DNA of 35,025 nucleotides. Origin: Bacteroidia bacterium. GTDB taxonomy: Bacteria; Bacteroidota; Bacteroidia; B-17B0; Aurantibacillaceae. Shown one piece after another: positions 1 through 17,985 of this stretch. The stretch covers positions 1 to 35,025 of the forward strand of contig JAEUTM010000397.1 in NCBI GenBank assembly GCA_016788025.1, written 5' to 3'. Positions within the stretch are counted from its first letter, which is position 1, and each line of letters starts with the position of its first letter. Under the pieces are notes generated by a model that ran no database searches, was not told the DNA's origin, and was given only the letters and a program-made list of their open reading frames with translations. The position numbers were made by a program, and so were the translations under genes.

Positions 1-584
1 TTGTATTGCAATTCCTTATTGTATACCGGTTCCCTGTACAAATAGTTTTGTTGAAGAAGTTGCGTTACAGAGAACCCTAAAAGCCATTTTTTACAACTGT
101 AGGTGATTCCAAATGCAGCATCAGGAATAGTTACAGCCTGCTGCTGTGGCCACTGCTGAAACTCTTCTGGAGCGTCGGCTTTAATCTTCGAAAAATCACT
201 CAGTTGTCGCTGAAAACCAGCGGAAAGGCCAAAAAGTAAATGATGCTTTAGGTTTAGTTTAGCCCTGAAACGTAATGAGCCGGACAAATACGTTTTGGAA
301 AATATCCCGGCTCTTTCATTAATAACATTTAATCCTGCCCCGTATTTATTCTTCGAAAATGGCCCGTCTACAGTCAATTGAACTAACTCAGGACTTTCGC
401 TCATACCAAACCAATTCTTTTTATAGTGACAATTGGCTGTTATTTCATTGTTCAATCCGATGGCCGCCGGATTTAATATATAAGGATTATATGCCGACTG
501 ATTCAGGAGAATGTTTTGTTGCGCGGCTATTTTGATCGCCCACGCCAAAATCATTAACAGATATTTCTTGTAATTTCTATTCAT
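1..584 (-). CDS. PorP/SprF-like T9SS-associated outer-membrane protein, 3' end outside window
   Basis: The reading frame runs leftward from an ATG at 584 without a stop to the window edge, giving 194 codons. The protein begins MNRNYKKYLLMILAWAIKIA, a signal-peptide-like stretch. It continues with QQNILLNQSAYNPYILNPAA and then alternating strands with phrases such as KYGAGLNVINERAG and FGLSAGFQRQ. An 'NP..NPA..G' N-terminus followed by beta-barrel strands is typical of PorP/SprF proteins (usually about 300-340 residues), which in Flavobacterium help T9SS export or anchoring of partner adhesins such as SprB. It is the last visible gene of the minus-strand operon and starts one base after the stop of the large PKD adhesin, so the two are probably translationally coupled. 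The adhesin is the obvious candidate partner. The family call is fairly firm; the substrate is inferred. Confidence 0.8.
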   Translation of the reverse strand, partial: MNRNYKKYLLMILAWAIKIAAQQNILLNQSAYNPYILNPAAIGLNNEITANCHYKKNWFGMSESPELVQLTVDGPFSKNKYGAGLNVINERAGIFSKTYLSGSLRFRAKLNLKHHLLFGLSAGFQRQLSDFSKIKADAPEEFQQWPQQQAVTIPDAAFGITYSCKKWLLGFSVTQLLQQNYLYREPVYNKELQY

Positions 585-585
585 T

Positions 586-3500: not shown

Positions 3501-4929
3501 TGAAGTGTTGTGCATTCGAATTCAACGACGTGGCGTCGCTAAATGTCCACTGGTTATTAAATGATCCCGAGCTGATAGTAACTGTGTCTTTAATAATTAC
3601 AGAATCTCCAAAACAGGAATTAAGATGATTAAAATAAGTAATCTGAGGATAAGGTGCCTGAGGCGCTATAACAATACTGTCTTTCGTAACACAGCCACGA
3701 ACGTCTTTAAGAGAAACGACAAACTTCTTATGCGTTGCACCAGGAATTGTGCTTATAGTTTGAGTATAAGATGGTGGCACGGTGCTCCATTCCCATTTTA
3801 ATGGTGAGTTTGGAATCTGAGAATTGTTGCCTGCATCGAGAATCGCCACGCTTCCAGTACACAAATGCATCGTATCAGGAATTAGTGCTGAAATTGGCGG
3901 ATTCGTACAATTCGGGTCAGCAATAGTAATGCGAAAAGCCTTCTGGTCAATCGCAACGTTTGTATGATTCATGTCGGTGAGAGTTGCAGTCATCACCCCG
4001 TTATTAACCGGTCCGCTTAAACTTACAATTGTATTCACAACGGTAGATGGAAGTACAGACCAGTTCATATCTGAATTGGGTGAAACAAAAAGTCTCATTG
4101 CTGACAGATTGTAATATCCGGTTGTGAAATAAGAAAAATCAGCGTAGGAGTAGTTAACCTTGATCGAGTTGTTTGCGAGTGATTGACCCGGAGAGTAAAT
4201 GTCAAAATATCTGAGTACACTTCCTTTTGCCGCATTTACCTGAGGTTTAAAGCCCCGGAAGATATTCAGGTCCGACCCTATATTAAGTAAGCCAAAAATT
4301 TGAATTCCGATATTCGCAGGATTAATGTCAACAGAATAGTTATAGATAGTTTTATAAATCACCAGACCGGTATCCTGCAATGAACTCGCCATAAACTCAG
4401 ACCCGTACCTTTCATTCTTTATATAAGGATGATTCATGACAGAAGGCGCGCCAACCGGATCAATGATATTCCATTTGAACCCGTTCATAAAAATGTTTCC
4501 GGTTTTAAACGTCAGAGTATCCTGACAACGTACATTAGTCTGAAGCGTAACAGAATTATTATTTCCTTTGTCAACTTCCACCTCCCAGAACTTAGGAATG
4601 GCATTTCCGCTTATTGTACAACTCGTTCCTGCCGAATATGTAAGAGTTGTTCGAAAAATAATTCTGGCTTTTTTTGCATTACCAGGACCGGCTGTTGCGC
4701 TAAACTTCAAGGTGTCATCATTTACAAGGTTGCCAGAGAGGTACAACGGTCCATTAAATCTTACTTGTTTCACCGCGTCGCAATTTAAATTACGAAAATC
4801 ACCGTCTACGCTTAAATAGCTATTCGAATCAACGCGTAAACTTGCATCTGCACCATTGACAAATAGTCCTGTTTGCGCAAAACAAAAAGTACTTAGTAAA
4901 GAAAATAATATGTTAAGATACTTTCTCAA
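586..4929 (-). CDS. Large PKD/Ig-like repeat adhesin with T9SS type A sorting domain
   Basis: This 1447-residue exported protein has a signal peptide at about residues 1-19 (ending CFAQ) and a unique N-terminal region to about 330. About five PKD-like domains follow (roughly 430-865; motifs such as WDFGDG and WNFGNG). Six shorter repeats then carry 'LGND..CG...LDAG.PG..Y.W' and 'SG.Y.V.VT...GC' (roughly 868-1275), then another PKD domain (WQFGDG). The C-terminal domain from about 1364 (NVFPNPG, ISGRLIY, GVYMISA, KFIKTD) is a T9SS type A sorting signal, so the protein should cross the outer membrane and be anchored or released at the surface. The start is a TTG at 4929, two bases after the upstream stop; no ATG exists back to the in-frame stop. 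No catalytic domain is visible. A binding or structural role is inferred. Confidence 0.88.
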   Translation of the reverse strand: MRKYLNILFSLLSTFCFAQTGLFVNGADASLRVDSNSYLSVDGDFRNLNCDAVKQVRFNGPLYLSGNLVNDDTLKFSATAGPGNAKKARIIFRTTLTYSAGTSCTISGNAIPKFWEVEVDKGNNNSVTLQTNVRCQDTLTFKTGNIFMNGFKWNIIDPVGAPSVMNHPYIKNERYGSEFMASSLQDTGLVIYKTIYNYSVDINPANIGIQIFGLLNIGSDLNIFRGFKPQVNAAKGSVLRYFDIYSPGQSLANNSIKVNYSYADFSYFTTGYYNLSAMRLFVSPNSDMNWSVLPSTVVNTIVSLSGPVNNGVMTATLTDMNHTNVAIDQKAFRITIADPNCTNPPISALIPDTMHLCTGSVAILDAGNNSQIPNSPLKWEWSTVPPSYTQTISTIPGATHKKFVVSLKDVRGCVTKDSIVIAPQAPYPQITYFNHLNSCFGDSVIIKDTVTISSGSFNNQWTFSDATSLNSNAQHFKRKFASPGEYSMQLVSTSNYGCSVTVTSTNITVYPLPIAAFVNSFNCSNGVFSFSSTSVSNHTAMAITSLLWNLGQGTANTSTLLNPSQSYSASGTYTVKLKISTNFGCKDSVESIVTLHPDNSPLFSKNNSCLGDTVYLTNSSACNTGSCNYQWDFGDGSFSSSLSPKKKYSAPGLYSVKLKINAPVGCPDSMSISVFVNPKPSAQFNSSVQDVCINTPVYFSNGSSISSGSISSYNWNFGNGNTATSINSTETYSNSGVYGVSLTAVSDSGCVSVIDLPVTVHSQPTAQYTVSNNCLGDQSQFISSSSGSGLSYVWYYGNSTVSNTLNSQFHNYMYPVAGVYTSSLIISDVWSCSDTSSITHTVFTSPVVSLGNQISTCGSSYTFDAGNPGSSFLWQPGNQTTQTIIAQNTGQYQVAITNTNGCIGSGTVQLTLNAPVVPYLGNDSTVCGSIVLDAGYPGSTYTWGSSQTTQTILATNSGVYSVTVTDQNACVGTAIIQLTVNSAATVDLGNDLLICKPKHGLVITPTTNASSYQWNTGSTASNILVTNNGSYWLEVTASNGCKKKDTVTVLFLTTPQPDLGPDKSLCGSAILDAQNSGATYLWSTNEVSQTISANLTGNYWVSVTNTVSGCSQNDTIFLTIFPLVNVFLGNDTSFCDNTGFLLNAGNPGATYSWANGQNTQFIPVTSSGLYGVSVTNNGGCSASDYIQITLLEAPTVELGSSTRYLCGNNFVELDAGQSGDILWSNETGTLSTEQTLQIQTPGEYKVRVSTGGCAAYDSVMVSTTNNTIQAQFLASTIDTVNRPVQFVNLSTPAPIGQLWQFGDGLTSSDLNPIHTFVLPVDYSVTLEVTNGFCSDRITKALSVLFRQGAVSIHQPITKLELLQFNVFPNPGSEIVNVFYELNDEAPVLITLTDISGRLIYAETFERNKIYSQQINIRNISCGVYMISAETNSAKGNVKQIRKFIKTD
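1140..2400 (-). repeat. Six tandem Ig-like repeats within the PKD adhesin
   Basis: Six units of about 67-72 codons lie in tandem. Each opens with 'V.LGND...C', continues with LDAGNPGATYSW-like sequence and 'TQTI', and closes with 'SGxYxVxVTNxxGC'. The third and sixth units have diverged most (ITPTTNASSYQW; LDAGQSGDILW). They are probably beta-sandwich spacers extending the adhesin from the surface. Boundaries are approximate. Confidence 0.8.
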
Positions 4930-4931
4930 TC

Positions 4932-5981
4932 TTATGGAAGTTTAATTATATATGCCAATACATAGTATGGCGGCCTGTTTTCATGAATCTGATCGCCTCC
5001 TTTTGCTGTTTCGGATACGCTCACTGATACAGTCTGTGGATCGCCACTGTAAGAAGTGCCATTTCCAATCCACACGTTTCCCCATAAATTGAACCCGAAG
5101 ACATTGCTGTTCGCTAAGGATGCACTTACATTATGCGTATGATTCGGCATTTCTGCGAGAGAAAGTGTATGCCCATTTTCACCTCCGGTATTACCAATAG
5201 CTCCGTAATTTATAGTCGTTCCATCAGCTGGTGCATTTACAGGAGTAACGCTTCCTGAACTAACGGCTATATATTGTCCTGTTGGAATATACTGACTACC
5301 TGGCGTGTTGTTCATACCAACGATAAATCTTCCTCTCAAGTCAGGGGTAGTTAAGCCATTATAAGTTCCCCCATCACAAATTGCCCAACCTACTGGTATC
5401 AGCGTACCACTCCACATAATAATTGCTCCTGTCGGAACAAGAGCATTCGACGAAAATCCTCCAACGTTAAGTGTACCAGTTGAAATTGTACCGCTGGAAG
5501 TAATGTCTCCACCGGTTTGTAAATTTCCAGACACTGTTGCGTTCCCAACAACATCAAGTGCCTGAATTGGATTCTGTTTGTTAATTCCAAGAGAAAATGT
5601 AGCAGATGACGACGGCGTTGTAATTACACCTGAAGGGTAATTTGTTGATCCGGTAGTAGGAGTGGATAACGTCAAAGGACTCATCGAAACCCAACGATTA
5701 ATAGATCCTTGATAATAATAATGCATTCTGTGATCCTTATCATAAACAACCAGTCCATCGGAAGGACTATTGGTGCCGGTTGACATAGACATTCTTTGTG
5801 TAGTTGTCATACTGGGCGTGAGTAACCCTTTAACAGTTCCCGCTGGTGACTCAACCTGTAAGGCCGCCGAATTATGCGGTGTTAAAATGTTTACCCCAAC
5901 CTGGCATTCATATTGCTCTGATAATGCAAGCAGGAACAGTAACAGCGTTATCCCTTTCTTAACCAATCTTTTCATAATCAT
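4932..5981 (-). CDS. Exported phage-tail-collar domain protein
   Basis: This 349-residue protein has a signal peptide at residues 1-27 (charged start, then ITLLLFLLALSEQ). Residues 28-100 follow the pattern common in Bacteroidota surface proteins (SAALQVESP, KGLLTPSMTTTQR, DGLVVYD, YYYQGSINRWV). Residues 128-175 look like a tail-fibre shaft (LGINKQNPIQALDVVGN). Residues 183-349 match the phage tail collar fold: PTGAIIMWSG, PVGWAICDGGTYNGLTTPDL, RGRFIVGM, LAEMPNHTHN and a C-terminal RPPYYVLAYIIKL. In phages this domain sits in fibre or baseplate proteins. Free-standing bacterial versions exist, but their function is mostly unknown. No T9SS sorting domain is visible. It lies 17 bases after the FN3 gene and two bases before the PKD adhesin, so it is probably a component of the same surface assembly. 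No other phage genes are nearby. Confidence 0.85.
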   Translation of the reverse strand: MIMKRLVKKGITLLLFLLALSEQYECQVGVNILTPHNSAALQVESPAGTVKGLLTPSMTTTQRMSMSTGTNSPSDGLVVYDKDHRMHYYYQGSINRWVSMSPLTLSTPTTGSTNYPSGVITTPSSSATFSLGINKQNPIQALDVVGNATVSGNLQTGGDITSSGTISTGTLNVGGFSSNALVPTGAIIMWSGTLIPVGWAICDGGTYNGLTTPDLRGRFIVGMNNTPGSQYIPTGQYIAVSSGSVTPVNAPADGTTINYGAIGNTGGENGHTLSLAEMPNHTHNVSASLANSNVFGFNLWGNVWIGNGTSYSGDPQTVSVSVSETAKGGDQIHENRPPYYVLAYIIKLP

Positions 5982-5998
5982 ATTTTATTTTCTGGATT

Positions 5999-8005
5999 CT
6001 ATTTAGTTTGCGGTTTACCTGTTCTTATTTCCAATTGATCGGACTTAAAAACATCACCCCTTTTATTATAAACTCTTAACTGATATATGTAATTATTGCC
6101 AGAACTCACATCCTTGTCCTTGTAAACATTGTCCTGTAGAACACCCGTTAATGGAAAAAAATAATTGTCATTTGAATTTCTTTTGTACAAGATTATGCCT
6201 TTAAGTTCGCTTTCTTCATCCAACATCCATTTCAAACTTATTTGCTGGTTACGTTTGTCATACTTTGCTTCGAACCGTTTTATTTCCACAAGATCGTCCT
6301 GCCGCTTCCTGATTTTTATTTTCTGTTTATTGGAAGACTTTGAAATATTACCAGTACTGTCAAGCGCCACTAGATAATACTCATACACAGTTTCCAGATT
6401 TGCTGTACGATCTATATAACGATACGAATCAAATGGAATCAACCTCGTATTCACTTTTTCAAAATTCTCGACGCTGTCAGTCATATTCCTACGGAAAACA
6501 TTATATCCGGCCAGATCAGGCTCAGCATTCAGCAACCACTCTACCTGGATTTGTTCTTTTTCGTTTGCAGCGAGGGTTTTTAAAAAAGGGGCGTTAGGAG
6601 CTTTTACATCAGGCATAGAGGCCGCTGCAAAATCTGAATACGGACTTTTATTTAGACTCTGATCGACGGCTACGATCTTGTAAAGAAATTTATTTTTTGT
6701 ATTGCTCGGCAGACGCTCTTCGTAACTATTCGTCGTAACAGGAACGGGAGTTATTTTTACGTAATTATCTGCCGAGTTTTCGTTTATAGTCCTGTATATC
6801 AGGTATCCTTCTAAATCATCCTCCGGATTTTTTTCCCAACTTAAGCGAAGGACCCCTGTATCTGCGCTAATCGTTAGGTTCTTTGGTTTAACCGGAGGTT
6901 CATCGTCATAAATTTCGAGGAAAAATGGATTTGATCTGGATTCGTTTTTATCATAATCTACTGCTGAGATGGCATACATGTACGAGCCGAAATGAGGCAC
7001 ACTGTCTATAAAGACAGAGTCTCCCACACTCACAAGTTCCTTATTAATGCGAACATAGTCAGTGTCATTTTTCGTTGTTCTGTAGACATTAAAGCCCGCC
7101 AAATCATCTTCAATGTTCTTTTTCTTCCATCTTAAACTTACCCTTCTTCCTTGTTGCGTTTTATAGACGGAGTCAGGCGCGATCGGCGCTTCCAGATCTT
7201 TTATATAGACCTCGATGGTTTCTGATTTCTCTGAAACATCTCCAAAAAAATCTATTGCTAAAAACTGATAATAATACTTAACACCCCCTCTGAGTTTTGA
7301 GTCCACAAAAAATTCCTTACCGTATTCCTCTTTACCATCTTTAGTTTTAGTTTTCGACAATATTATAGGGTCTTTCGTTATCTTAACAAAAGTACCGGTG
7401 TCTCCAATCCTCCGGTATATATCTGTTCCAAAATAACGGCTGCTCTCCGGCTTCCATAAAAACGAAACCTTTTTCTTTCCAGTCGTAAAAGAAATTTCTT
7501 TCTGAGGTTCAATGGGCTTATATCCAGATGCTACTATTTTTGAACTAATCGCCACATCTGCTTCAATACCTTGTTTAATTCTAGTGAGTTTGTATTCATA
7601 TTCCTTTCCCTTTATGAAATTCACATCGTCAAAACGAATCCCAAGAAACTTACTGAATTCATCGCTCTTAAACGATTTGATAATACAGGCCAGGAACGCG
7701 AGGTCCTTAAGATTTTTTGGATCAGCAGCAATCGTAATATAGCTACTAAGTTCTTTGTCGATTAATTTAGCTTCCTGTGAAACTGAGTAAGAGCCGTGTT
7801 TTACCGGAGCTTGATTTAGCTTCTGCCAGGTTATTTCCCCGATCTCCCTTCTGTAAATATTAACTCCTTCCTTCGAAAGCAATTCTGCACAGTACCACTT
7901 CACCTGTACAACATTTCCGTCGGGACTTACTCTGCACAAGAGATTATCTTGCGCTTCCAGGCCAATAACAAAAAAAATTAATAAATATTTTAAATACCTA
8001 AACAT
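5999..8005 (-). CDS. Secreted multi-domain fibronectin type III protein
   Basis: This 668-residue protein has a signal peptide (MFRYLKYLLIFFVIGLEAQ). After an N-terminal module it carries about five FN3-like domains from roughly residue 170 to the end. Each is marked by a core Trp (VSLRWKKK, LRLSWEKN, IQVEWLLN, ISLKWMLD), then 'DL.GYxxYR' (DLAGFNVYR, DLEGYLIYR, DLAGYNVFR) and a Tyr-rich strand with 'YxIxAVD'. FN3 arrays usually act as binding or spacer modules. No enzyme domain and no T9SS C-terminal signal is visible, so it may stay in the periplasm or be held by a partner. Its ATG overlaps the upstream gene's stop by one base, which implies translational coupling with the beta-barrel protein. 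Its role is inferred from context. Confidence 0.8.
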   Translation of the reverse strand: MFRYLKYLLIFFVIGLEAQDNLLCRVSPDGNVVQVKWYCAELLSKEGVNIYRREIGEITWQKLNQAPVKHGSYSVSQEAKLIDKELSSYITIAADPKNLKDLAFLACIIKSFKSDEFSKFLGIRFDDVNFIKGKEYEYKLTRIKQGIEADVAISSKIVASGYKPIEPQKEISFTTGKKKVSFLWKPESSRYFGTDIYRRIGDTGTFVKITKDPIILSKTKTKDGKEEYGKEFFVDSKLRGGVKYYYQFLAIDFFGDVSEKSETIEVYIKDLEAPIAPDSVYKTQQGRRVSLRWKKKNIEDDLAGFNVYRTTKNDTDYVRINKELVSVGDSVFIDSVPHFGSYMYAISAVDYDKNESRSNPFFLEIYDDEPPVKPKNLTISADTGVLRLSWEKNPEDDLEGYLIYRTINENSADNYVKITPVPVTTNSYEERLPSNTKNKFLYKIVAVDQSLNKSPYSDFAAASMPDVKAPNAPFLKTLAANEKEQIQVEWLLNAEPDLAGYNVFRRNMTDSVENFEKVNTRLIPFDSYRYIDRTANLETVYEYYLVALDSTGNISKSSNKQKIKIRKRQDDLVEIKRFEAKYDKRNQQISLKWMLDEESELKGIILYKRNSNDNYFFPLTGVLQDNVYKDKDVSSGNNYIYQLRVYNKRGDVFKSDQLEIRTGKPQTK

Positions 8006-9747
8006 TACACTTTCGAAGTCCGAATTTTTTTACTTTTAATTCCGAAATTATATACGTAACCCAATCCACCTCTTACTTCCTTGAACTCCTGGGTTCCCTC
8101 CTTTAGTGCGGTTTTGCTTAGATAAGAGCAATCGGCTTTAAAAGACTGATGCTTATCAATTGTGAAAGCAAAGCCGAAACTTAAACTTATATTCCGACTC
8201 AGAGCTTCCTTGTTAAATAACGCTTTTTGAAAACCTGAAGAAACGACCAATCTTATCTTATTCTTATACAAACCTTTTTGCAATCCTATGTTTGGTCCAT
8301 ACCCTTCCGTCGATCCAATATTCCCAGCAGTTGATTTGTTATATATTGCAGAAATATTAATTCCCAATCCTAGTTCGCTAAAATTTGTGTTGAACGAACA
8401 GGTCTCATTTAAAAATGTTGAAAGAGCCTGTTTATTACCCCCCGATTCCTGATAGGCCAGGCTATTTGAAAGACTGTATTTTACTTTTCCCTTACCGAAT
8501 GCATACATTCCGGAAAGTGATCCATTCTGTGTTAACTGAACAAATTTTATTGAATCAGTGAAAACATCGCGCACCGGCAATGTATTAGAACTGAAATTCG
8601 AATAGTTGGCAGAAAGATTGAAACTCTCAGTAATGTTATAGGACAAATTTAAAGCTCCAATAAATCTTTGAGAAGTTACTACCTGAATCCGGTCAAGATT
8701 GTTTCTTTGCAGGCCGGCTGCAACACCAACACTTATTCTATTTTTTAACACTGCAAAATTGCTGTTTGCCGAAAGTTCTTCTACATCGTTTGCAAGAAAA
8801 ATGGCACCCAGCGATCTATAGTCCGGATCAATACGTTTATACTTTACTCCGAAACGCGCTTTACCTGGGTTAAAATCAATACCGAAATTCATAGCTTTAT
8901 TGAATTGTGATGACGGTCTTGGAGAGTAAATCTGGTTAACGTAAGTGAATCTTTCTATTTTAGTAACATCATCGTACAAATTTTTTGTAAACATGCTGTA
9001 GGAAAAATCACCATTCACCCCGAGCCATGAGTTCACTCTTTGCCTTGTAACAATCGCGATAATTTGGTTTTCCTGAGGGGTTATAGTTAATGCTGTGTCA
9101 AATGCAATTGAGCTCACCCGATCCTTCATTTTTAAGAATATGAACTCGCCATAATTCTGCTCTGTGCCCACTTTTAATTTTGTCCCGGCTCCCCATCTTT
9201 CATACGCTGGGAGACTAACCGTAACACCATCCACGCCTCCTTTAGGCACTGCCTTTACAAATCGTCCGTACAAAGCCGTCCCACTGATTAAAGATTTTTC
9301 TGGCTTTACCTCAACACCTCCTCCAAGAAAAATTGCACCTGATAAAGTGTATTCAGAAAATTCCAATGACCGGAAGCCAGCGTGGATAGTGAGCCAACGA
9401 TATCTAGGTGAAATTCCGAACTGGTTAAAAGGTTGGCTAAACTTGTCCAAACCGTTAGAATAATTCTTGTCTTGTTGGGTAATAACCGCTGTAAAAGGAA
9501 CGTTTATTTTGTTAAACAAGCTGATATTAAGATTAGCGTTCAGAACCCAATAAAAGGGATCTCTTCTCGCCTGGATGCCATAAGGTTTATAAAACACAGC
9601 ATTAGCACCTATACTTCCGGTACAAGAAATGGGTTCCTGTTTAAAGAGGTTTTTTGCTTCAGACACAGATTGTTCAATGTCTTGCGCAAGTACGCTTTCA
9701 AACATAAAAAAACCTAGCAGTATGGGTATCAGGGCTCGGTAATGCAA
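8005..9747 (-). CDS. Outer-membrane beta-barrel protein, first gene of the surface operon
   Basis: This 580-residue protein has a signal peptide ending near residue 22 (ESVLAQ). The rest is alternating polar/hydrophobic strands with aromatic residues, for example FNQFGISPRYRWLTIHAGFR, ARFGVKYKRIDPDYRSLG and a C-terminal GGLGYVYNFGIK. That pattern fits a large beta-barrel of the kind common and mostly unnamed in Bacteroidota. The start used is TTG at 9747, directly after an in-frame TGA. An in-frame ATG lies seven codons upstream of that stop, so the true start or an upstream nonsense change is uncertain. As first gene of the operon it could anchor or export the downstream FN3, collar and PKD proteins, but this is inference. 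A barrel is likely; a specific function cannot be named. Confidence 0.75.
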   Translation of the reverse strand: MHYRALIPILLGFFMFESVLAQDIEQSVSEAKNLFKQEPISCTGSIGANAVFYKPYGIQARRDPFYWVLNANLNISLFNKINVPFTAVITQQDKNYSNGLDKFSQPFNQFGISPRYRWLTIHAGFRSLEFSEYTLSGAIFLGGGVEVKPEKSLISGTALYGRFVKAVPKGGVDGVTVSLPAYERWGAGTKLKVGTEQNYGEFIFLKMKDRVSSIAFDTALTITPQENQIIAIVTRQRVNSWLGVNGDFSYSMFTKNLYDDVTKIERFTYVNQIYSPRPSSQFNKAMNFGIDFNPGKARFGVKYKRIDPDYRSLGAIFLANDVEELSANSNFAVLKNRISVGVAAGLQRNNLDRIQVVTSQRFIGALNLSYNITESFNLSANYSNFSSNTLPVRDVFTDSIKFVQLTQNGSLSGMYAFGKGKVKYSLSNSLAYQESGGNKQALSTFLNETCSFNTNFSELGLGINISAIYNKSTAGNIGSTEGYGPNIGLQKGLYKNKIRLVVSSGFQKALFNKEALSRNISLSFGFAFTIDKHQSFKADCSYLSKTALKEGTQEFKEVRGGLGYVYNFGIKSKKIRTSKV

Positions 9748-9882
9748 TCAGTGTCTAAAATAGTGCATTCTGGTGTTGCTATGCGAGCCTTTAATGCTTG
9801 GAAATAAAAAATAAGACAAGGCTATTTCCCAACTCCATCAAAACATAAAATGCTCCGACGAACAAGTATCTAAAACGATTTT

Positions 9883-9898
9883 TGAGGGGATCCCCTCA
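9883..9898. promoter_or_regulatory. Perfect 16-base palindrome, possible operator
   Basis: TGAGGGGATCCCCTCA is a perfect inverted repeat about 135 bases upstream of the left-facing operon. It could bind a dimeric regulator. In RNA it would form a six-base-pair stem with a GATC loop, and no U-tract follows, so it is not a standard terminator. Confidence 0.35.
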
Positions 9899-9958
9899 TC
9901 TTAGCCTAAGGTTAATAACCGTTAGTGAAAAAGTCATGTGAAAACGGTCTATAAACAG

Positions 9959-9993
9959 AAAAAACCTCATCTGGCGGGCCAGAGAGGTTTTTT
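9959..9993 (+). terminator. Strong intrinsic terminator in a divergent region
   Basis: The arms AAAAAACCTC (9959-9968) and GAGGTTTTTT (9984-9993) pair perfectly. Inside them TCTGG (9970-9974) pairs with CCAGA (9979-9983) around a CGGG loop, with one bulged A at 9969. A T-rich run follows to about 10003. The A/T-ended stem makes it work on paper in both directions. No gene converges on it: the flanking genes are transcribed away from each other. It may end an unannotated short RNA, or act as an attenuator or insulator in the leader of the left operon. Confidence 0.7.
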
Positions 9994-10000
9994 CCTTTTT

Positions 10001-10064
10001 TTTGGGTAGAATGTATCAGTTGGCAGTTAACTATAGTGTTATTCTTTACCCAAATGTAGAATGT
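10001..10064. repeat. Nested inverted and direct repeats
   Basis: TTTGGGTA (10001-10008) is the exact reverse complement of TACCCAAA (10047-10054). GTAGAATGT occurs at 10006-10014 and again at 10056-10064, 50 bases apart. The combination just after the terminator suggests protein binding sites or an RNA fold, but the repeats are short. Confidence 0.35.
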
Positions 10065-10095
10065 TTGTGTGGTGGAAAATCCGCAGTTGTGTGGT
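10065..10095. promoter_or_regulatory. Direct repeat with 22-base spacing, candidate LytTR regulator site
   Basis: TTGTGTGGT occurs at 10065-10073 and 10087-10095, start to start 22 bases (two helical turns), with a 13-base spacer. LytTR regulators such as AgrA bind two roughly 9-base direct repeats separated by about 12-13 bases, so the geometry fits the response regulator encoded downstream. The sites lie about 130 bases before the kinase promoter element. Binding is not shown by the sequence. Confidence 0.35.
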
Positions 10096-10228
10096 TTATC
10101 ACATCCGTTTTATAAGTGGTAGGGTTTATTGAGAGTTTTGAAAAGTATGGAATTGGGCATTTGATGAATTTTAATCGCATGAAAAATGCGGTTTGTCTAT
10201 ATAAAATAGCTTTTAGACGTGCAAATTC

Positions 10229-10236
10229 TAAGTTTG
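10229..10236 (+). promoter_or_regulatory. Candidate Bacteroidota -7 element for the LytS/LytTR operon
   Basis: TAAGTTTG fits the TAnnTTTG consensus of the Bacteroidota housekeeping sigma factor and lies 43 bases before the GTG start, leaving a leader of about 35 bases. No well-spaced TTG or TTTG -33 motif is present, so the promoter may be weak or need an activator. Confidence 0.4.
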
Positions 10237-10278
10237 GTATAAATTGGTGATTTTTGTTCTGATAAAGTCTCTGGTAGC

Positions 10279-11772
10279 GTGTTATTCAGACTTATAGCAG
10301 TCCACATAGCTTTGTGTATGAGCAGCTTCTTGGCGGCGCAGAGCCAAAGAGGTCCAAGCGCTGCTTTTTATTTTAATAAGGGCAGCCCAGTGGATGCCGT
10401 TACTGGGCACAGAGCCGGCATTAGCGGCGCATCTTTTACCACGGACCGTTTCGGCAATAAAGACCATGCGATCTTTCTGAGTGGTACTGGCGACTCGCAC
10501 CTCAACCTGGGAACTTACAAGGAGCTTAAACCGAGCGAGGGAAGCATTTCCCTTTGGGTAAAGATGGAACACCCGATCCGGGCCGGTAAAGGTGTTCCTT
10601 ACAATCCAATTCTTATTACCCGTTGTGCCGATCGCGAGGATTTTAACGAGGCTTATGTACTTTATTATATGCTGGAATCGGGAAAAATGCTGGCCGCCTG
10701 CTGCAGGGATTCTACCCGCGAAATAGGTGTGTATAGCAAGGAGCGCTTTGAACGTGAGGTTTGGAAACACCTGGTGGTAAGCTACGATTCGAGCCATGTG
10801 GCCCTTTACATAGACGGCCGTTTGCAACAGAGCAGTCCGAAAAAATTTAAAACAGTTTTCCTGGAAGGAGAGTCTGTATTGGTTGGCTTTAATGGCAGCG
10901 CAAAAAATTTACGGTGGTGGAACGGGAGCGTAGACGATATTGAGTTTTATGATCATGTACTCAGCGAGGAGGAAATTATAAATCTCTTCCACGCGCCAAA
11001 TCCCAATAAAACCACAATCCTGGTTCAGCGTATTCTTATTGCCCTGGCTATACTTGTTGTTTTGGTGTTGATTTATTTTTTAATACGGTACCGGGTAAAA
11101 CAGGTTTTAAAACGCGAGAAACAAAAACACGAACTTAATAACGTGATCCTGCAGACAGAGCTGAGGGTGAACCGCGCCCTGATGAACCCACACTTTGTGT
11201 TTAATTCGTTAAACGCCTTACAGAATTTAATCCTGAGCCAGGAAATTGAGAAAGCAAATGATTACCTGGTAAAATTCAGTAAAATGATCCGGAAGTTACT
11301 GGAGAGTAATATGTCGGACCTGATAAGCCTGGAAATGGAAATAGAATTACTGAAGCGTTACATGGAAATTGAGAATCTACGTTTTGAGGAAAACATCGCC
11401 TTCAACATAGAAGTAGATCCCGCGATTAATACTATGACAACCCGGATTCCTGTGATGATGCTTCAGCCCTTTGTAGAAAATGCGATCTGGCACGGGCTTC
11501 TGAAAAAACAAGGAGAAAAACTTCTGACCATTTATTTTTCGCTGGTTGAGGACAAATACATTCTGTGTGTTATAGAAGACAATGGCATTGGAAAAGAAAA
11601 CAAAAAAAACTCGGCCATTTTTGATAAAGCGTCGCTTGCTACCAGCTTTATTGAACAAAGACTCCAGACTTTGAACAGGATCCATGGTTTGCATTGCGAA
11701 ATGAGCATTGAATACAAAACGGGGCAAAGCGGAACCAAAATGAAAATATTGTTACCAATTCTTAAAGCATGA
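10279..11772 (+). CDS. LamG-domain sensor histidine kinase, LytS/YehU type
   Basis: The 497-residue protein has four parts: a signal peptide (about 1-21, LAAQ), an extracytoplasmic LamG/concanavalin-A-like domain (about 25-238; SISLWVKME, VVSYDSSHVALYIDGRL, WWNGSVDDIEFYDHVLSEEE), one membrane helix (about 251-270) and a cytoplasmic kinase. The kinase has a coiled stretch and then the His_kinase motif LMNPHFVFNSLNAL with phospho-acceptor His305. The ATPase N-box (LQPFVENAIWHGL) and G-box (EDNGIGKEN) follow. LytS-family kinases phosphorylate LytTR regulators, and one is encoded four bases downstream. A LamG sensor suggests detection of a glycan or surface protein, but the ligand is unknown. The GTG start at 10279 is chosen because it preserves the signal peptide; the frame has no ATG before it. 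Confidence 0.88.
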   Translation: MLFRLIAVHIALCMSSFLAAQSQRGPSAAFYFNKGSPVDAVTGHRAGISGASFTTDRFGNKDHAIFLSGTGDSHLNLGTYKELKPSEGSISLWVKMEHPIRAGKGVPYNPILITRCADREDFNEAYVLYYMLESGKMLAACCRDSTREIGVYSKERFEREVWKHLVVSYDSSHVALYIDGRLQQSSPKKFKTVFLEGESVLVGFNGSAKNLRWWNGSVDDIEFYDHVLSEEEIINLFHAPNPNKTTILVQRILIALAILVVLVLIYFLIRYRVKQVLKREKQKHELNNVILQTELRVNRALMNPHFVFNSLNALQNLILSQEIEKANDYLVKFSKMIRKLLESNMSDLISLEMEIELLKRYMEIENLRFEENIAFNIEVDPAINTMTTRIPVMMLQPFVENAIWHGLLKKQGEKLLTIYFSLVEDKYILCVIEDNGIGKENKKNSAIFDKASLATSFIEQRLQTLNRIHGLHCEMSIEYKTGQSGTKMKILLPILKA

Positions 11773-11776
11773 TGTT

Positions 11777-12520
11777 ATGTTGAGAGCAATTATTATAGAC
11801 GATGAACAGAGAGGAATAAACACTCTTAAACTGTTGCTGGAACGTTATGTTCCAGAGGTGAAAGTGGTTGCCGATTCGTCGGAGCCTTTAAAGGGGATGG
11901 ATCTTATAGAAAGCTACAGGCCAGAAATTGTTTTCCTGGATATTAATATGCCTGAGATGGATGGTTTTGAATTGCTGGAAAAATTGCAATGGAAAAACTT
12001 TAACCTGATATTCACAACTGCACACCAGGAATATGCTTTAAAGGCTATTAAGAACAATGCGATAGATTACCTGTTAAAACCCATTGATTATGTTGATCTG
12101 AAGGCAGCGGTAGCGCGCATCCTGAAACGTAATGCACAACACGATACAGATGTAAAATTCAATTACAGCCAGTTGATCCAGGACCTGAACCAGAAACAAC
12201 GTATTTTGATCAATTCACGATCGGGGGTTGAAGCCGTTGATCTGGACGAAATCATTTGTATGGAATCGGAATCGAATTATACCACGGTATTTTTGGTGGA
12301 CGGAAAAAAAATAACTACTGCAAAGACCCTGAAAGAGTTCGAGGGACAGCTTTGCAGCGAAAACTCTCATTTTATGAGGGTTCACCAGTCTTACATTATC
12401 AACCTCAAAAAAGTTCAGCGTTTTGTGAAGACGGATGATATGATCGTACTTGATGAGGAACTGCAGGCTCCTCTATCCAAGAGCAGGCGTGATCTCTTCT
12501 TTAAATGGATGAATGTTTGA
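11777..12520 (+). CDS. LytTR-family response regulator
   Basis: The 247-residue protein has an N-terminal receiver domain (about 1-120) with acidic Asp9/Asp10 (IIIDDE), phospho-acceptor Asp55 (IVFLDINMPEMDG), the conserved Thr region IFTTAH and Lys in LLKPID. A LytTR DNA-binding domain follows (about 140-245), with 'RILINSRSGVEAVDLDEIIC', SNYTTVFLVDGKK and FMRVHQSYIINLKKV. It starts four bases after the kinase stop and surely forms a two-component pair with it. Likely targets are the divergent surface operon, its own operon, or both; the repeat pair at 10065-10095 is a candidate site. It ends directly against the convergent esterase gene, with no spacer and no terminator visible between them. 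Confidence 0.92.
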   Translation: MLRAIIIDDEQRGINTLKLLLERYVPEVKVVADSSEPLKGMDLIESYRPEIVFLDINMPEMDGFELLEKLQWKNFNLIFTTAHQEYALKAIKNNAIDYLLKPIDYVDLKAAVARILKRNAQHDTDVKFNYSQLIQDLNQKQRILINSRSGVEAVDLDEIICMESESNYTTVFLVDGKKITTAKTLKEFEGQLCSENSHFMRVHQSYIINLKKVQRFVKTDDMIVLDEELQAPLSKSRRDLFFKWMNV

Positions 12521-14299
12521 TTAATGCTGCACCAGCACCTTTTTTACAATGGTGCTTTCAGGCAACACAAATACCAGCGAGTAAACTCCAGGTTCCAGCT
12601 GGCTGACCGCGATCTCTAGTTTTGTTTTGTCGGGATCGGGTTCTATTTGAACAAACAGGTTCCCATTGAGATCGTAGAGTCGAATTTCTTTAATGGTTTT
12701 ATTGAACAGTCTTATTTCGATAAACTCGTCGGCCGGCGATGGAAACACATTCACATAACCCCCTCCAACGGGAAATTCAAAAAAGGAAAGGGCTCCAAGC
12801 GTGGGATTGTTTTTGTTAACGATCCAGGGTCCCATATAACCGGTTTGCAATTTGGATAGAATATTCGGCAAATAGGTTAAACGATCGGTTTTTTCAAACA
12901 TGTTAGACATGGTGAGGTAGAGTTTGTTTCCCTGTGTATGGATGTCTTGTATGAGAAGCTGTTCGAAGGACTTCTTGTAAAAATAATCCTTGAGATAGGT
13001 TGTTCCTGTGTATGGATAACTGAAGTCGGTGGACAGCTGTGCCTCTATGTCCATATCAAATTCCAGGCATAATTGCGAAGAAGAGACATAGGATATTTTC
13101 TGAATTGAAGGACCCATGATCTGATCCCTGGGATAATTAAATCCGTAAATTTCGTTCAGCACCACCGGATACAAAATTTCGGCGAGTCGATTCGCGCCCT
13201 TAAGCGTGTAATGACAGCCATCCGTGCTTTTGTCGTATTGATCGAAACCAAAGGTTGGAAGAACCAGTACATCGTTAAAAATCAAGGGCCATTGTCGCTG
13301 TTGTTCCCTGATCCTGTATTCGTAATCGCCATAACAGCCCGTGTTGAGTTGAAACACAAATATTTTCTTCAGGTTGGGATAGTCTGATTTCCAGGATTCC
13401 CTTAATTTGCCGAAACGGGTGGTGTAATCCATGGCATCTTCATAGGTCAGGTTTCCGTCGGTTTCTCCCTGGTACCAGACAATACCTTTAATGCCCCGCA
13501 ACACATCGTTGTTGAGTAATTTAATATAGGCACGATCATAAGGTCGCATTACCCGGCCTGTGCTTGTATCATTTACCACCTGCAGCCTGCTTTGATCACT
13601 GGGCGTATTGGAAGCCATGTGGTAGGAGATGGAACTGCCACCTTTGCCGCTGTTGATGAAACACAGAGGCACCCCGGTTTTTTTGCATAGCTCATACATT
13701 AAACGGTAGGGCCAGGAGGCAATGCAACCGTGCTCAAAATAAATGGAGGAAGGTTTGTAGTAACCGCAGTCCATGGAGAGATTCCAGTTTATATACTCTG
13801 CCCGTTCATACAAAGTTCCTAAACTTCTGCAATACTTATTTGCGTAGGTTGAATCGAAGCGGAGGCCTTCTTCGCTGTATCCATTGGATCCAACAGCGTT
13901 TGACTGACCGCTGATTAAAAAATAATCGCCGGCCACCAGGCCCGGGACTTCCTTCACGAGATTTTGATTTCCCTGTTCGTCATAAGAATAGATGATCAGT
14001 TTATATTCTTCAAACTTTGCCGGGATTTCGAGTGTTGCCGAAAATTTTGATTCCTCATCCAGCCTGATTGTCTTATCATAAATGTATGTGTCGTTTTCGG
14101 CGTTGTGAAGCAGTAACCTAACATACTTCTTTTCCGGGTTAAAACATTTCCCTGCCACCACAAAACGACCCATGTTATCGTCGTCCCTGGGAATCAGTTT
14201 CATTTCTGCCGGAATGCTGTAAAATATAAATTGTGCAGAGACGCAAAATGGCATCGCAGACAAGAGCATAAAGGAAAGTATTTGGTACAGAGCCCGCAC
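12521..14299 (-). CDS. Secreted SGNH/sialate O-acetylesterase-like enzyme with T9SS type A signal
   Basis: The 592-residue protein has a signal peptide (MRALYQILSFMLLSAMPFCV, cleavage near residue 22). After an N-terminal beta domain comes an SGNH-type esterase resembling the SASA family: GQSNAVGSNG with nucleophile Ser133, GIVWYQGETDGN (275-282) and DGCHYTLKGANRLAE with Asp360 and His363. This family removes acetyl groups from sialic acids or other acetylated sugars. The last 75 or so residues (VNVFPSPADEF, EIRLYDLNGNLF, GVYSLVFV, KKVLVQH) form a T9SS sorting domain, so the enzyme acts at or beyond the cell surface. It starts at GTG (14299); no ATG lies before the upstream stop. It is divergent from hemCD and convergent with the response regulator. 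The substrate is inferred only. Confidence 0.82.
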   Translation of the reverse strand: MRALYQILSFMLLSAMPFCVSAQFIFYSIPAEMKLIPRDDDNMGRFVVAGKCFNPEKKYVRLLLHNAENDTYIYDKTIRLDEESKFSATLEIPAKFEEYKLIIYSYDEQGNQNLVKEVPGLVAGDYFLISGQSNAVGSNGYSEEGLRFDSTYANKYCRSLGTLYERAEYINWNLSMDCGYYKPSSIYFEHGCIASWPYRLMYELCKKTGVPLCFINSGKGGSSISYHMASNTPSDQSRLQVVNDTSTGRVMRPYDRAYIKLLNNDVLRGIKGIVWYQGETDGNLTYEDAMDYTTRFGKLRESWKSDYPNLKKIFVFQLNTGCYGDYEYRIREQQRQWPLIFNDVLVLPTFGFDQYDKSTDGCHYTLKGANRLAEILYPVVLNEIYGFNYPRDQIMGPSIQKISYVSSSQLCLEFDMDIEAQLSTDFSYPYTGTTYLKDYFYKKSFEQLLIQDIHTQGNKLYLTMSNMFEKTDRLTYLPNILSKLQTGYMGPWIVNKNNPTLGALSFFEFPVGGGYVNVFPSPADEFIEIRLFNKTIKEIRLYDLNGNLFVQIEPDPDKTKLEIAVSQLEPGVYSLVFVLPESTIVKKVLVQH

Positions 14300-14368: not shown

Positions 14369-15955
14369 GTGAGTAGAAAAATAATCATCGGTACGCGCGG
14401 TAGCGACCTGGCTTTGTGGCAGGCAAATTACACCAAGGAATTGCTGGAAGAAAAGGGGCAAGAGGTTGAAATTAAAATCATTCAAACCGAAGGAGACCGC
14501 TCGCAGCAATGGAATACAAGCTTCGACAAGCTGGAAGGAAAAGGCTTTTTTACCAAAGAGCTTGAAGAGGCCTTATTGAATAAAAGCATAGACCTGGCGG
14601 TGCATTCCCATAAAGACTTACCAACAGTGAACCCTGATGGTTTGCTTGTTGCCGGTGTTTCAAAACGCGAAGATCCTTCTGATATTCTGATCATGCAGAA
14701 AAGTGCGGTAGATGACAAACAAAAATTTGGTTTAAAAAAAGGGGCCATCGTTGGCACGTCATCTGCCAGGAGAAAATCGCAGTTGCTGGCATTTCGTCCG
14801 GATGTGACGATAAAAGACCTGAGAGGCAATGTTCCCACCCGTGTAGAAAAACTGAGAAAAGGAGATTACGATGCTATCTTATTGGCTACTGCAGGAGTTG
14901 AAAGGCTCGAATTGGATCTTGATGATCTGCATTCGGAGAACTTAAATCCCGAAGAATTTGTTCCTGCACCTGCGCAGGGAGTACTGGCCTGGCAGACACG
15001 CGAAGACGATAACGAGCTTTTGAGCATTATAGACGAAATCAGTGATCTGGATGTATTGATCCGAATAAATATTGAGAGGCAGATCCTGAACATGCTCGAC
15101 GGTGGATGTCAATTGCCTTTGGGCGCTTATTGCGATACGGAGGAAGATGATGAAGACCGTTTAAAATTCAGGGTGTGGGTGAGTGTGGCTAAAGACTGGA
15201 ACGAACAGCCCAAACAGTTATACTTCGAAACGTTGGATACAGATGGATTCAGCGATATGATCGTGGATCACATTCATGCTATTAAGGGGAAAAAAGTGTT
15301 TGTGACCAAAACCTTCCGCGAAGAAGACTATTTACCAAGCGCACTAAAGCGTTTGAATTTTGAGGTAGAAGGAAAAAGCCTTATTGAATTTAAACAGATC
15401 AGGATCAAAGAACTTCCAAAAACCGACTGGGTATTTTTCAGCAGCAAACATGCCGTGCGTTATTTCTTTAACCAGAATCCAAAACTTGAAAATGTGAAGT
15501 TCGGGTGCATCGGCACTTCGACAAGTGCAGAGCTAAGAGCCTTCGGCAAACGCGCGGACTTTATCGGGACAAGCACCGACATTAAACTCGTTGGTAAACA
15601 ATTCAGCAGCAAGGTGGGTAATGGAAAAGTGTTATTCCCAATTGCCCGAGGCAGCATGCAAAGCATCCAGTGGCAGATGGTGAAAAGAGAAAATGTATTT
15701 AACCTCGAGGTTTACGCCACGTTAAAACACAGCATAGAAATTCCTGCAGACTACGATATTTTAGTGTTTACCTCTCCAAGCAATGTTGAAGCCTGGGCGG
15801 AAAAAAACACATTACATCCCAACCAGAAAGTGGTAGCCATGGGCGAAAGCACAGGCAAGGCATTGGAGAAATTAAAAATTAAAGAATATGTGATGCCACA
15901 AAGTTTCGATGACCTTGGATTGCTGAGAGCGGTTTTGGGTGTGGCGAAGTTTTAA
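14369..15955 (+). CDS. hemCD: Fused hydroxymethylbilane synthase / uroporphyrinogen-III synthase
   Basis: The 528-residue protein joins two successive enzymes of tetrapyrrole synthesis. Residues 1 to about 300 are porphobilinogen deaminase (HemC), with IIGTRGSDLALWQA, the catalytic Asp83 in VHSHKDLPT, GTSSARRKSQLL, LRGNVPTRVEKL and Cys247 in LDGGCQLPLGA, which should carry the dipyrromethane cofactor. Residues from about 307 resemble uroporphyrinogen-III synthase (HemD): KKVFVTK, DWVFFSSKHAV, GCIGTSTSAEL, ILVFTSPSNVEAW and VVAMGESTGKAL. It should convert porphobilinogen to uroporphyrinogen III in the cytoplasm. Separate HemC proteins are about 310 residues and HemD about 250, so the length supports fusion. 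It starts at GTG 14369. No other haem gene is adjacent. Confidence 0.93.
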   Translation: MSRKIIIGTRGSDLALWQANYTKELLEEKGQEVEIKIIQTEGDRSQQWNTSFDKLEGKGFFTKELEEALLNKSIDLAVHSHKDLPTVNPDGLLVAGVSKREDPSDILIMQKSAVDDKQKFGLKKGAIVGTSSARRKSQLLAFRPDVTIKDLRGNVPTRVEKLRKGDYDAILLATAGVERLELDLDDLHSENLNPEEFVPAPAQGVLAWQTREDDNELLSIIDEISDLDVLIRINIERQILNMLDGGCQLPLGAYCDTEEDDEDRLKFRVWVSVAKDWNEQPKQLYFETLDTDGFSDMIVDHIHAIKGKKVFVTKTFREEDYLPSALKRLNFEVEGKSLIEFKQIRIKELPKTDWVFFSSKHAVRYFFNQNPKLENVKFGCIGTSTSAELRAFGKRADFIGTSTDIKLVGKQFSSKVGNGKVLFPIARGSMQSIQWQMVKRENVFNLEVYATLKHSIEIPADYDILVFTSPSNVEAWAEKNTLHPNQKVVAMGESTGKALEKLKIKEYVMPQSFDDLGLLRAVLGVAKF

Positions 15956-16077: not shown

Positions 16078-17985
16078 TTACTGCACCAGCAATCTCAAAA
16101 TTGCCACAGCGCCTCCACACTGAACCCTTACGATATAAACACCCTGTGTAGGGTAAAAATTGTTTACGGTAAAGTTTATCTGATCATCAGAACCAACGGT
16201 ACCTGTACTGGTAACAGCAGCGGCAAGATTTGTTATTTCGACGGTAACCGGATGTTGCGCTGCCTCCGACAAGGTAAATTTTATTTGATCTCCTTCGTTT
16301 ATAGGATTAGGAGTAAGGCTTACCTCCAATTCTTCTCCACGATCGACCGCCACTACCGGTGAGTATTCATAGGAACCATCGAAATCAATTTGTTTGAGTC
16401 TGTAATAGCTGATGCCGCCAACCGGATTGTTATCGTAAGCACTGTAATTATTAATATTCTGGCTGTTGCCTGCTCCCGGCACAGAGGCTACGTAAGAATA
16501 GCCTATTCCATCGGTGCTTCTCTCCACAACAAACATTGCGTTGTTTTGCTCTGTGGCGGTAGACCATTGCGTTAAGACCCTGTCGTAACTTTCTGTTGCT
16601 TTGAATTCAATCAGCTCAATTGGTAAGGGTCCTGAACTTGAGGCAATAATTCCAGAACCGTTGGTACCGCTGCCTGCACCCGCGCTCACTGTGCCACCAC
16701 TGTTATCTTGTCCTGCCGCCCCGTTGCTTGTTTGTGTAGTGACATTTGTGGTTGGTTGTGCGGATGAAAAAATCACAACACCCTGGCCACCACCGCCGCC
16801 TCCGGCGTGAGCCGCTCCATCAGTACAATCGCCACCATCTCCACCGTTTGCTCTTAGTGTTAAAGGGCAGGCTGCATTAATTGAAAATGCGGAAGCATCG
16901 ATAACAATAGAACCTCCGGCGCCACCGCCGCCCATTCCATCATTACCTCCGTTAATAGCATTAGCTCCGTTTGCCGACATCCTAATTGTGGACCCGCATG
17001 TTGTACTGGTTGCAATAGTGCCTGCTTTAACGAGAATGATACCTCCACCGTTACCACCTGATGAATTTTGAGAGTTGTTCTGCTGACCGCCGCCACCGCC
17101 GCCGCCCATAAATACCCGACTCGCGCTAATATTCGACGATAGTGAAAGACCACCTAAGCCACCACCGGGAAAGGTTGTACAGTTATTATATCCGTTGCCC
17201 CCCTGGCCTCCCGATGTATAGTTTCCGCCGCCGCCGCCGCCGGCATTATGATCATTACCTCCACCACCACCGTTTAGCATTCTACCTCTGGCATTGTTAA
17301 ATGTGTTTGTTGTATTACGATAAATGCTTTCGCCCTTATATCCCAAATTTGCGTTGTTTGCAATGTATATTGTGTTACTTGGTGAAGTGCATATGGCCCC
17401 GCCGTTATTGTTAGAATAACTGCCACCTCTGAATCCGACAGCTTCTGCAAGCAAACGATGATTTAAGGTAAGCGTTCCGGTTGTCGCAATTGCCAATACC
17501 CCGCCTACATTTCCATCCCAGGCTACAGCTGCCAGATTTGCGGTAGTTGTATAATTTGCGCCGAGGTCTCTGAAACTAATCATTTGCACTGATGAGTTTG
17601 TGCCCGTGTTGTATGTACCCGACAAAGCAGAGGTTAATGTAACCGAGGTGGGTGTTCCGCTTGTTGGCGTCACCGCGGCAATCGTTCTTACCTGGTAAAT
17701 ACCTGCGTTAGCAATTGAACTTAACGACCCAAACGTTGAAACATTTGTGGTGTTCGTTCCTATAACATCGTCCTGCATTTGCATAACAATAACCAAACCG
17801 CCCACGGTAAATGTATGATTGGTGATATTAACGTTGGATAAAGCCAGAACGCTGCCACTCGTTATGGAAGTAACCTTGGCATAGGCATTAACAATGGTTT
17901 GAGACGTTGAAAAAAAGGTAACAAGTTGCAGGAGAAAAATAAGTCCTGTCTTTGATATTAAATATCTGCAGCCTGAAGTTGACAT
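16078..17985 (-). CDS. Glycine-rich secreted protein with T9SS type A sorting domain
   Basis: The 635-residue protein has a hydrophobic signal segment (about 10-32, ending FFSTSQ). A beta-rich region follows (about 33-230; VNITNHTFTVGGLVIVMQMQ). A glycine-rich stretch (about 235-440) has runs such as GGGGGGGQ, and some sections look like a glycine-rich scaffold. Residues from about 450 hold the sandwich common before Bacteroidota sorting signals (LPIELIEFKATE, QWSTATEQNNAMFVVERSTD, YYRLKQIDFDGS). The end (VSLTPNPINEGDQIKF, GVYIVRVQCGG, RLLVQ) is a type A T9SS domain. It is therefore an exported surface or released protein. No enzyme motif is seen; a structural or adhesive role is a guess. A 122-base gap separates it from the convergent hemCD. 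Confidence 0.82.
   Translation of the reverse strand: MSTSGCRYLISKTGLIFLLQLVTFFSTSQTIVNAYAKVTSITSGSVLALSNVNITNHTFTVGGLVIVMQMQDDVIGTNTTNVSTFGSLSSIANAGIYQVRTIAAVTPTSGTPTSVTLTSALSGTYNTGTNSSVQMISFRDLGANYTTTANLAAVAWDGNVGGVLAIATTGTLTLNHRLLAEAVGFRGGSYSNNNGGAICTSPSNTIYIANNANLGYKGESIYRNTTNTFNNARGRMLNGGGGGNDHNAGGGGGGNYTSGGQGGNGYNNCTTFPGGGLGGLSLSSNISASRVFMGGGGGGGQQNNSQNSSGGNGGGIILVKAGTIATSTTCGSTIRMSANGANAINGGNDGMGGGGAGGSIVIDASAFSINAACPLTLRANGGDGGDCTDGAAHAGGGGGGQGVVIFSSAQPTTNVTTQTSNGAAGQDNSGGTVSAGAGSGTNGSGIIASSSGPLPIELIEFKATESYDRVLTQWSTATEQNNAMFVVERSTDGIGYSYVASVPGAGNSQNINNYSAYDNNPVGGISYYRLKQIDFDGSYEYSPVVAVDRGEELEVSLTPNPINEGDQIKFTLSEAAQHPVTVEITNLAAAVTSTGTVGSDDQINFTVNNFYPTQGVYIVRVQCGGAVAILRLLVQ
16780..17285 (-). 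repeat. Glycine-rich low-complexity segment with GGN codon runs
   Basis: On the plus strand this segment shows repeated CCGCCACC and CCGCCGCCG runs, notably around 17087-17106 and 17226-17243. They encode poly-glycine on the minus strand. Such trinucleotide runs can slip during replication, changing loop length without a frameshift. Confidence 0.6.

Follow-up and report, generated by a model that had tools for sequence, protein, structure and literature searches.

The window analysed in this study, a stretch of 35,025 nucleotides from contig JAEUTM010000397.1 of a Bacteroidia bacterium, carries genes for a LamG-bearing sensor kinase and its regulator between an adhesin operon and an esterase gene (Table 1). 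As described in the original prediction, the kinase gene is oriented away from the operon, and the pair and the esterase gene are convergent; the stop codons of the regulator and esterase genes are adjacent (12520/12521). The placement and identification of the LamG–LytS kinase, the LytTR regulator and the T9SS-tagged SASA esterase in that prediction also hold, coordinates included. The "OMP" protein of the operon showed no Pfam or NCBIfam match, and its name is a label given in this analysis. The gap between operon and kinase (9748-10278) holds no ORF over 44 aa. Adjoining the hemCD fusion is a gene for a glycine-rich T9SS protein (16078-17985) resembling the N-terminus of the gliding protein AgmC (187.6 bits, below the cut-off of 275); such a gene also adjoins hemCD in two related genomes, G001 and G030. 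A very long open frame (27034-35025; 2664 aa so far) runs past the window end.

Table 1. Genes and predicted features around the kinase–regulator pair in the window.
Feature	Position	Strand	Basis and remarks
Operon OMP–FN3–tail-collar–PKD/T9SS tail–PorP/SprF	3-9747	-	Pfam; last gene incomplete at the window's edge
Short leader RNA with an intrinsic terminator at its end (predicted)	9953-10044	-	Fold; inferred start site
-7 box TACATTTG of the leftward promoter	10051-10058	-	Perfect; 52 bp from the element
23-bp element TATAAGTGGTNNNGTTTATTGAG, exact match	10111-10133	.	Likely LytTR-type operator
LamG (Laminin_G_3)–LytS-type sensor histidine kinase	10279-11772	+	Pfam; signal peptide, LamG, one transmembrane helix, catalytic core
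LytTR response regulator, likely binder of the element	11777-12520	+	Pfam; sites accompany the regulators most similar to it
SASA-family (sialate O-acetylesterase-like) protein with T9SS type A tail	12521-14299	-	Pfam, NCBIfam and PDB matches
hemCD fusion	14369-15955	+	Pfam; downstream of the pair in relatives, neighbour of the esterase

The kinase matched Laminin_G_3 (E 3.8e-18) and His_kinase (E 1.4e-19) in Pfam, and its sequence reads as an N-terminal hydrophobic signal with one further hydrophobic helix. Its H, N and G boxes are all present, H305, N401 and D434-N435-G436 being invariant in an alignment of 35 homologues. In the structure model (mean pLDDT 71) the LamG part is a beta-sandwich. 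The 50 matches listed by a fold search were lectin-like jelly-roll matches of 12-18% identity, nearly all of them to receptor-binding parts of clostridial neurotoxins, with an arabinanase (AbnA) and a domain of a mosquitocidal protein making up the remainder; they inform on the fold only. The LamG domain had been called extracellular, but in a Gram-negative cell the topology of the protein (signal peptide, single transmembrane helix, cytoplasmic kinase) would place it in the periplasm. The regulator matched Response_reg (2.7e-20) and LytTR (4.9e-17).

Within the order, we searched 87 genomes, all of one family, including the window's own genome (G000). The last is 91.6% complete and in 628 contigs, and it may therefore hold further targets of the element described below that are unseen. 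With the window kinase as query, four LamG–LytS kinases were found in G000, namely the window's and those on contigs C212 (57% identity), C196 (49%) and C522 (36%). Among the matches listed, full-length ones occur in at least six of the ten genera of the family, and none from 23 genomes outside the family extends into the LamG domain. Among the 80 named loci kept, only L038 and L039 carried LamG kinases by a local HMM. The genus set comprises 35 units, L039 being dropped from its counts as it shares a contig with L198, and a later set comprises 21 units fetched afterwards, 17 of them from other genera. The control total for neighbour counts is 44, since one of the initial 45, L204, was the latter half of a split LamG kinase and was removed. 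The counts below are not independent because the genomes are related. A gene for a receiver–LytTR regulator is adjacent to the kinase gene in 34 of the 35 genus units (the remaining one ends at a contig edge) and in 19 of the 21 later units.

Reading of the regions upstream of the kinases revealed a common 23-bp sequence. Toward the surface gene it reads CTCAATAAAC-N3-ACCACTTATA, most often with the start codon some 80 bp further on; in L122 and L123 it is shorter by one base. By weight matrix, eight of 35 genus and three of 21 later upstream regions scored above every simulated sequence versus none of 45 controls, the later set being the only independent test because the matrix was trained on eight of the 35 genus regions; one control, L176, passed the 1% level. 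Sites with up to three mismatches numbered 57 against 9 for the reversed pattern in 12 genomes chosen for kinases of the clade defined below, and those with up to two mismatches numbered 46 against 5 in the 87 genomes, lying in 19 of them. Of the 46, 31 (29 by count and two masked there by a spurious 70-aa ORF) precede an opposite-strand gene with a surface label within 420 bp, compared with 54 of 460 genes labelled in control loci, and 14 of 29 element-to-gene distances are 76-86 bp. By this count, the other 15 of 46 had no labelled gene. The -7 consensus of Bacteroidota is TAnnTTTG, and such a box lies 51-53 bp from the element at 24 of the 46 sites (13 perfect), against a mean of 2.4 and a maximum of 8 in 1000 shuffles. 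Moreover, a box toward the kinase stands at exactly 42 bp in 8 of 11 kinase-proximal elements (shuffles reached at most 4 at any offset). The half-site ATAAGTGGT is repeated 17 bp away, with 5.24 of 9 matches against a background of 2.61 (sd 0.62). LytTR direct-repeat operators are usually about 21 bp apart, a spacing that is not strictly defining; with 17 bp, the element is not a classical LytTR site. In a pairwise search for a second element in the other LamG-kinase clades, one of 25 pairs exceeded its own shuffles, by one base. In one of these clades, AAGTGGTT-like pieces recur upstream of L134, L136, L142, L144 and L194 and are perhaps a diverged operator.

The element appears to go with the regulator. 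Among 92 regulators compared from the genus, later and control loci, 13, including the window's, have a site within 3.5 kb, and all 13 are among the 18 that most resemble the window's, which makes a regulator of the window type the likely binder of the element. The kinase partners of two of the 13 are of the LytS type but lack LamG; the site therefore follows the regulator and not the sensor. Three loci with such kinases and with regulators close to the window's (L151, L152 and L154) carry the element before the gene after the regulator, in L154 in a three-mismatch form. In a kinase tree that omits L150 and L204 as too short, a single clade of 17 rows (support 100/100) contains 12 of the 13 kinases marked as element-bearing, with up to four mismatches and length changes of one base permitted. 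Genomes with a kinase of this clade (13 by the tree and G012 by identity) have a site with up to two mismatches in 12 of 14 cases, versus 7 of 73 other genomes; the two without one are G030 and G090. In G000, three kinases belong to the clade and the element is found only at the window's, the region upstream of the C212 kinase being cut by a contig end. The seven genomes with a site and without a clade kinase are G033 (exact) and G069, both with the site before T9SS genes, and G009, G027, G070, G073 and G102, which have two-mismatch sites with no labelled gene so placed and whose number is matched by the 5 sites of the reversed pattern. The exact site in G033, that in G069 and the atypical repeat spacing would fit an element bound by another factor with the LytTR regulator merely nearby. 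We regard this as unlikely, because the association tracks regulator similarity across two kinase types and because the half-site read on the other strand, ACCACTTAT, equals one repeat printed for the LytTR regulator BrsR (PMC6193735). From these sequence comparisons, binding of the 23-bp element by the LytTR regulator is likely.

Compared with known systems, the pair is like LytS/LytTR systems of the LytSR, BtsSR and YpdAB kind in its LytS-type His_kinase with conserved motifs and its adjacent receiver–LytTR gene in one operon, and we claim membership on the protein side only, because its half-sites are 17 bp apart, unlike the approximately 21 bp of that class. It also differs by its LamG sensor, whereas kinases of that kind have a multi-pass membrane sensor. 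The best NCBIfam match of the regulator was BtsR, below the cut-off (132.7 of 246 bits). PorX/PorY is a two-component control linked to T9SS; the window regulator matched NCBIfam PorX only over residues 5-141 and far below the cut-off (41.2 of 300 bits). LytTR Regulatory Systems such as HdrRM and BrsRM are similar in that they have a LytTR regulator and that repeats precede both its own promoter and those of its targets (PMC6193735). On the other hand, they have a membrane inhibitor and no kinase or receiver, while the window pair has both a histidine kinase and a receiver and so lies outside that class; the repeat spacing also differs. PMC full text, a corpus with most subscription papers outside its coverage, yielded no paper on LamG histidine kinases in Bacteroidetes and none joining the chaperone of endosialidase with type IX secretion.

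The window's element is the only match with up to three mismatches in G000. Its leftward -7 box is perfect, and 364 bp separate the element from the start of the operon. Toward the kinase no box is present at 42 bp, and TAAGTTTG stands at 95 bp. The segment 9950-10045 folds at -24.5 kcal/mol (z -4.24) with a weak hairpin before the terminator, and the terminator-like stem core (9970-9983) was found on both strands, in a whole scan that gave 5 such stems against a shuffle mean of 6.7. The predicted leader had no Rfam match. Loss of a gene with its promoter left behind is the simplest reading of this arrangement, and judging from the sequence, the leftward promoter probably once served a surface gene that was lost. 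Since the promoter is intact and directed at the adhesin operon and a weak hairpin precedes the terminator, it might instead drive the operon (from 9747 leftward) through a leader of about 300 nt, with the terminator as an attenuator subject to signal-dependent read-through. This form of leader control seems doubtful to us: the start codons in relatives are most often about 80 bp from the element, Rfam gave no match, and the whole operon in G030 has an unrelated-looking upstream region in a genome without a site with up to two mismatches. The intact promoter and the strong terminator with no gene between them could also produce a functional small RNA, which we consider quite improbable, as decay after gene loss is simpler.

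The original prediction linked the pair to the adhesin operon, a link that is not supported. In G030 the same five genes occur in the same order at 52-71% identity, and the nearest of the LamG kinases listed for that genome is about 350 kb away. We rejected the operon as a conserved partner of the kinase, because the G030 copy is whole, away from any LamG kinase and without the element; in the window itself, the terminator separates the operon from the element. Weaker FN3 homologues exist in G019, G018, G034, G063 and G003 (25-32% identity), and by coordinates none is beside a LamG kinase among the matches listed.

The esterase matched SASA (1.2e-12) and Por_Secre_tail (4.2e-9) in Pfam and TIGR04183 above its cut-off. 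Export by the T9SS is plausible because a T9SS core gene is present in the same genome (SprA_N, E 5e-156), so that both a C-terminal sorting domain and a core gene are found. Weak matches to sialic acid esterases in the PDB (E 0.0009 to 0.006) and a GQSN motif with S133, which we take to be the motif of the SASA family, were also found. The protein shares the SASA domain and this motif with SASA sialate O-acetylesterases and differs from them by its T9SS tail; as predicted from sequence, it is sialate O-acetylesterase-like by domain family only. Long homologues occur in five of 39 other genomes of the genus, the one in G026 being cut by a contig end. In G017 and G030 the esterase gene and hemCD are divergent and no kinase match occurs at these loci; in G001 the esterase gene lies near a LamG kinase of the same type, on the other side and beyond a LamG fragment; and the stretches fetched around the homologues in G006 and G026 had neither a kinase nor a hemCD match. 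As a partner of the pair, the esterase was rejected in favour of hemCD, which is the recurring neighbour: the esterase adjoins hemCD in two genomes and is near a LamG kinase in a single genome. At seven loci (L121, L122, L123, L125, L126, L128 and L193) hemCD directly follows the pair, at L124 it lies 6 kb away, and in the window the esterase intervenes.

These results leave little of the proposal that the pair controls both operon and esterase in order to sense, attach to and de-acetylate one glycan. Adjacency in the window and the esterase near the same kinase type in G001 speak for such a circuit. On the other hand, the esterase goes with hemCD without a kinase match in G017 and G030 and with neither in the stretches from G006 and G026, the G030 operon is not linked to a LamG kinase, and no site stands at the esterase, because the one at 10111 is the only one in G000. 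No support was found for glycan sensing and de-acetylation as one circuit. We consider the circuit very unlikely; operon and esterase are probably neighbours with separate histories and not partners of this promoter.

The more general idea of a kinase beside surface genes stood in the window's genus and was not reproduced in the 21 later units. The divergent upstream gene carries a surface or export label in 18 of 21 cases in the genus units, which include several orthologues and one tandem pair, versus 3 of 23 for LytS kinases without LamG, whose neighbours are largely one repeated context because 10 of the 23 are NUDIX proteins; none of the 13 same-strand upstream genes in the genus units (without L039) is labelled. 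The surface HMMs were home-made and seeded partly from neighbours of genus-set kinases, but Pfam, which is free of such seeding, pointed in the same direction, with 8 Por_Secre_tail, 3 CHU_C, 2 S74 and 8 LamG matches among the 21 divergent genus neighbours and 2 Por_Secre_tail and 10 NUDIX among the 23 control neighbours (first 25 of 52 families listed). Single Pfam scans of 17 neighbour proteins gave a family consistent with the label for 13 and none for three "TF" (tail-fibre-like) neighbours and the G001 LamG fragment. In the later set, 2 of 6 divergent upstream genes were labelled by the same HMMs, and two more looked surface-like by eye. A labelled gene on either side was found in 27 of 35 genus units, 10 of 21 later units and 19 of 44 controls, the later set thus showing no excess over controls. 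A LamG gene next to the kinase occurred in 12 of the 35 genus units, in 1 of the 21 later units and in 0 of the 44 controls, and the pairing of LamG gene and LamG kinase was rejected as a general rule.

The gene divergent from the kinase is varied: Ig/CHU_C giants in G018, G034 and G063 (the last ending at a contig edge and 79% identical to that of G034), LamG proteins with T9SS tails in G006 and G020, a tail-fibre-like protein in G007, a T9SS protein in G025, a LamG fragment in G001 and the operon in the window. The G001 surface gene (L128:10800-11700) looks fragmentary and lies between kinase and esterase; an 83-aa piece is LamG-like by local HMM and without a Pfam match. In L126 (G025:C84), two LamG-kinase–regulator units stand in tandem, separated by the gene for a 1323-aa T9SS protein, and the element is present in several copies. 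In another LamG-kinase clade (L197, L203, L205, L207 and L208), the pair is downstream of apparent CDP-sugar synthesis genes (by eye).

Taken together, it is quite likely that the window encodes a LamG-sensing LytS/LytTR pair acting via the 23-bp element on surface genes, with a promoter that lost its gene. The periplasmic LamG domain would receive a signal, and the kinase, as its conserved motifs suggest, would phosphorylate the regulator, which by the association of sites with regulator similarity would bind the element. From there it may activate leftward transcription from the TAnnTTTG promoter 52 bp away, a spacing that is observed, and at many kinase loci it may also activate the rightward kinase operon through the box 42 bp away. 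In relatives the leftward gene usually encodes an exported surface protein that contains parts of the LamG, Ig/CHU_C, tail-fibre-like or S74 kind, while in the window the intact, gene-less promoter would yield at most a terminated RNA of about 90 nt.

How Bacteroidia select which T9SS-exported surface proteins to make is, to our knowledge, little known. As a tentative and rather speculative extension, the LamG domain might monitor T9SS cargo in transit, binding unexported surface proteins, many of them LamG-bearing, or glycans on them, and the kinase might adjust transcription of the same cargo through the bidirectional promoter of fixed spacing. Regulator and operator would then be retained through exchanges of sensors (LamG or other) and surface genes, the window showing the promoter after gene loss. 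A promoter element of fixed spacing tied to one regulator subfamily makes the regulon predictable from sequence and directly testable. Moreover, a periplasmic LamG sensor facing LamG-bearing cargo would, if true, be a new kind of export feedback.
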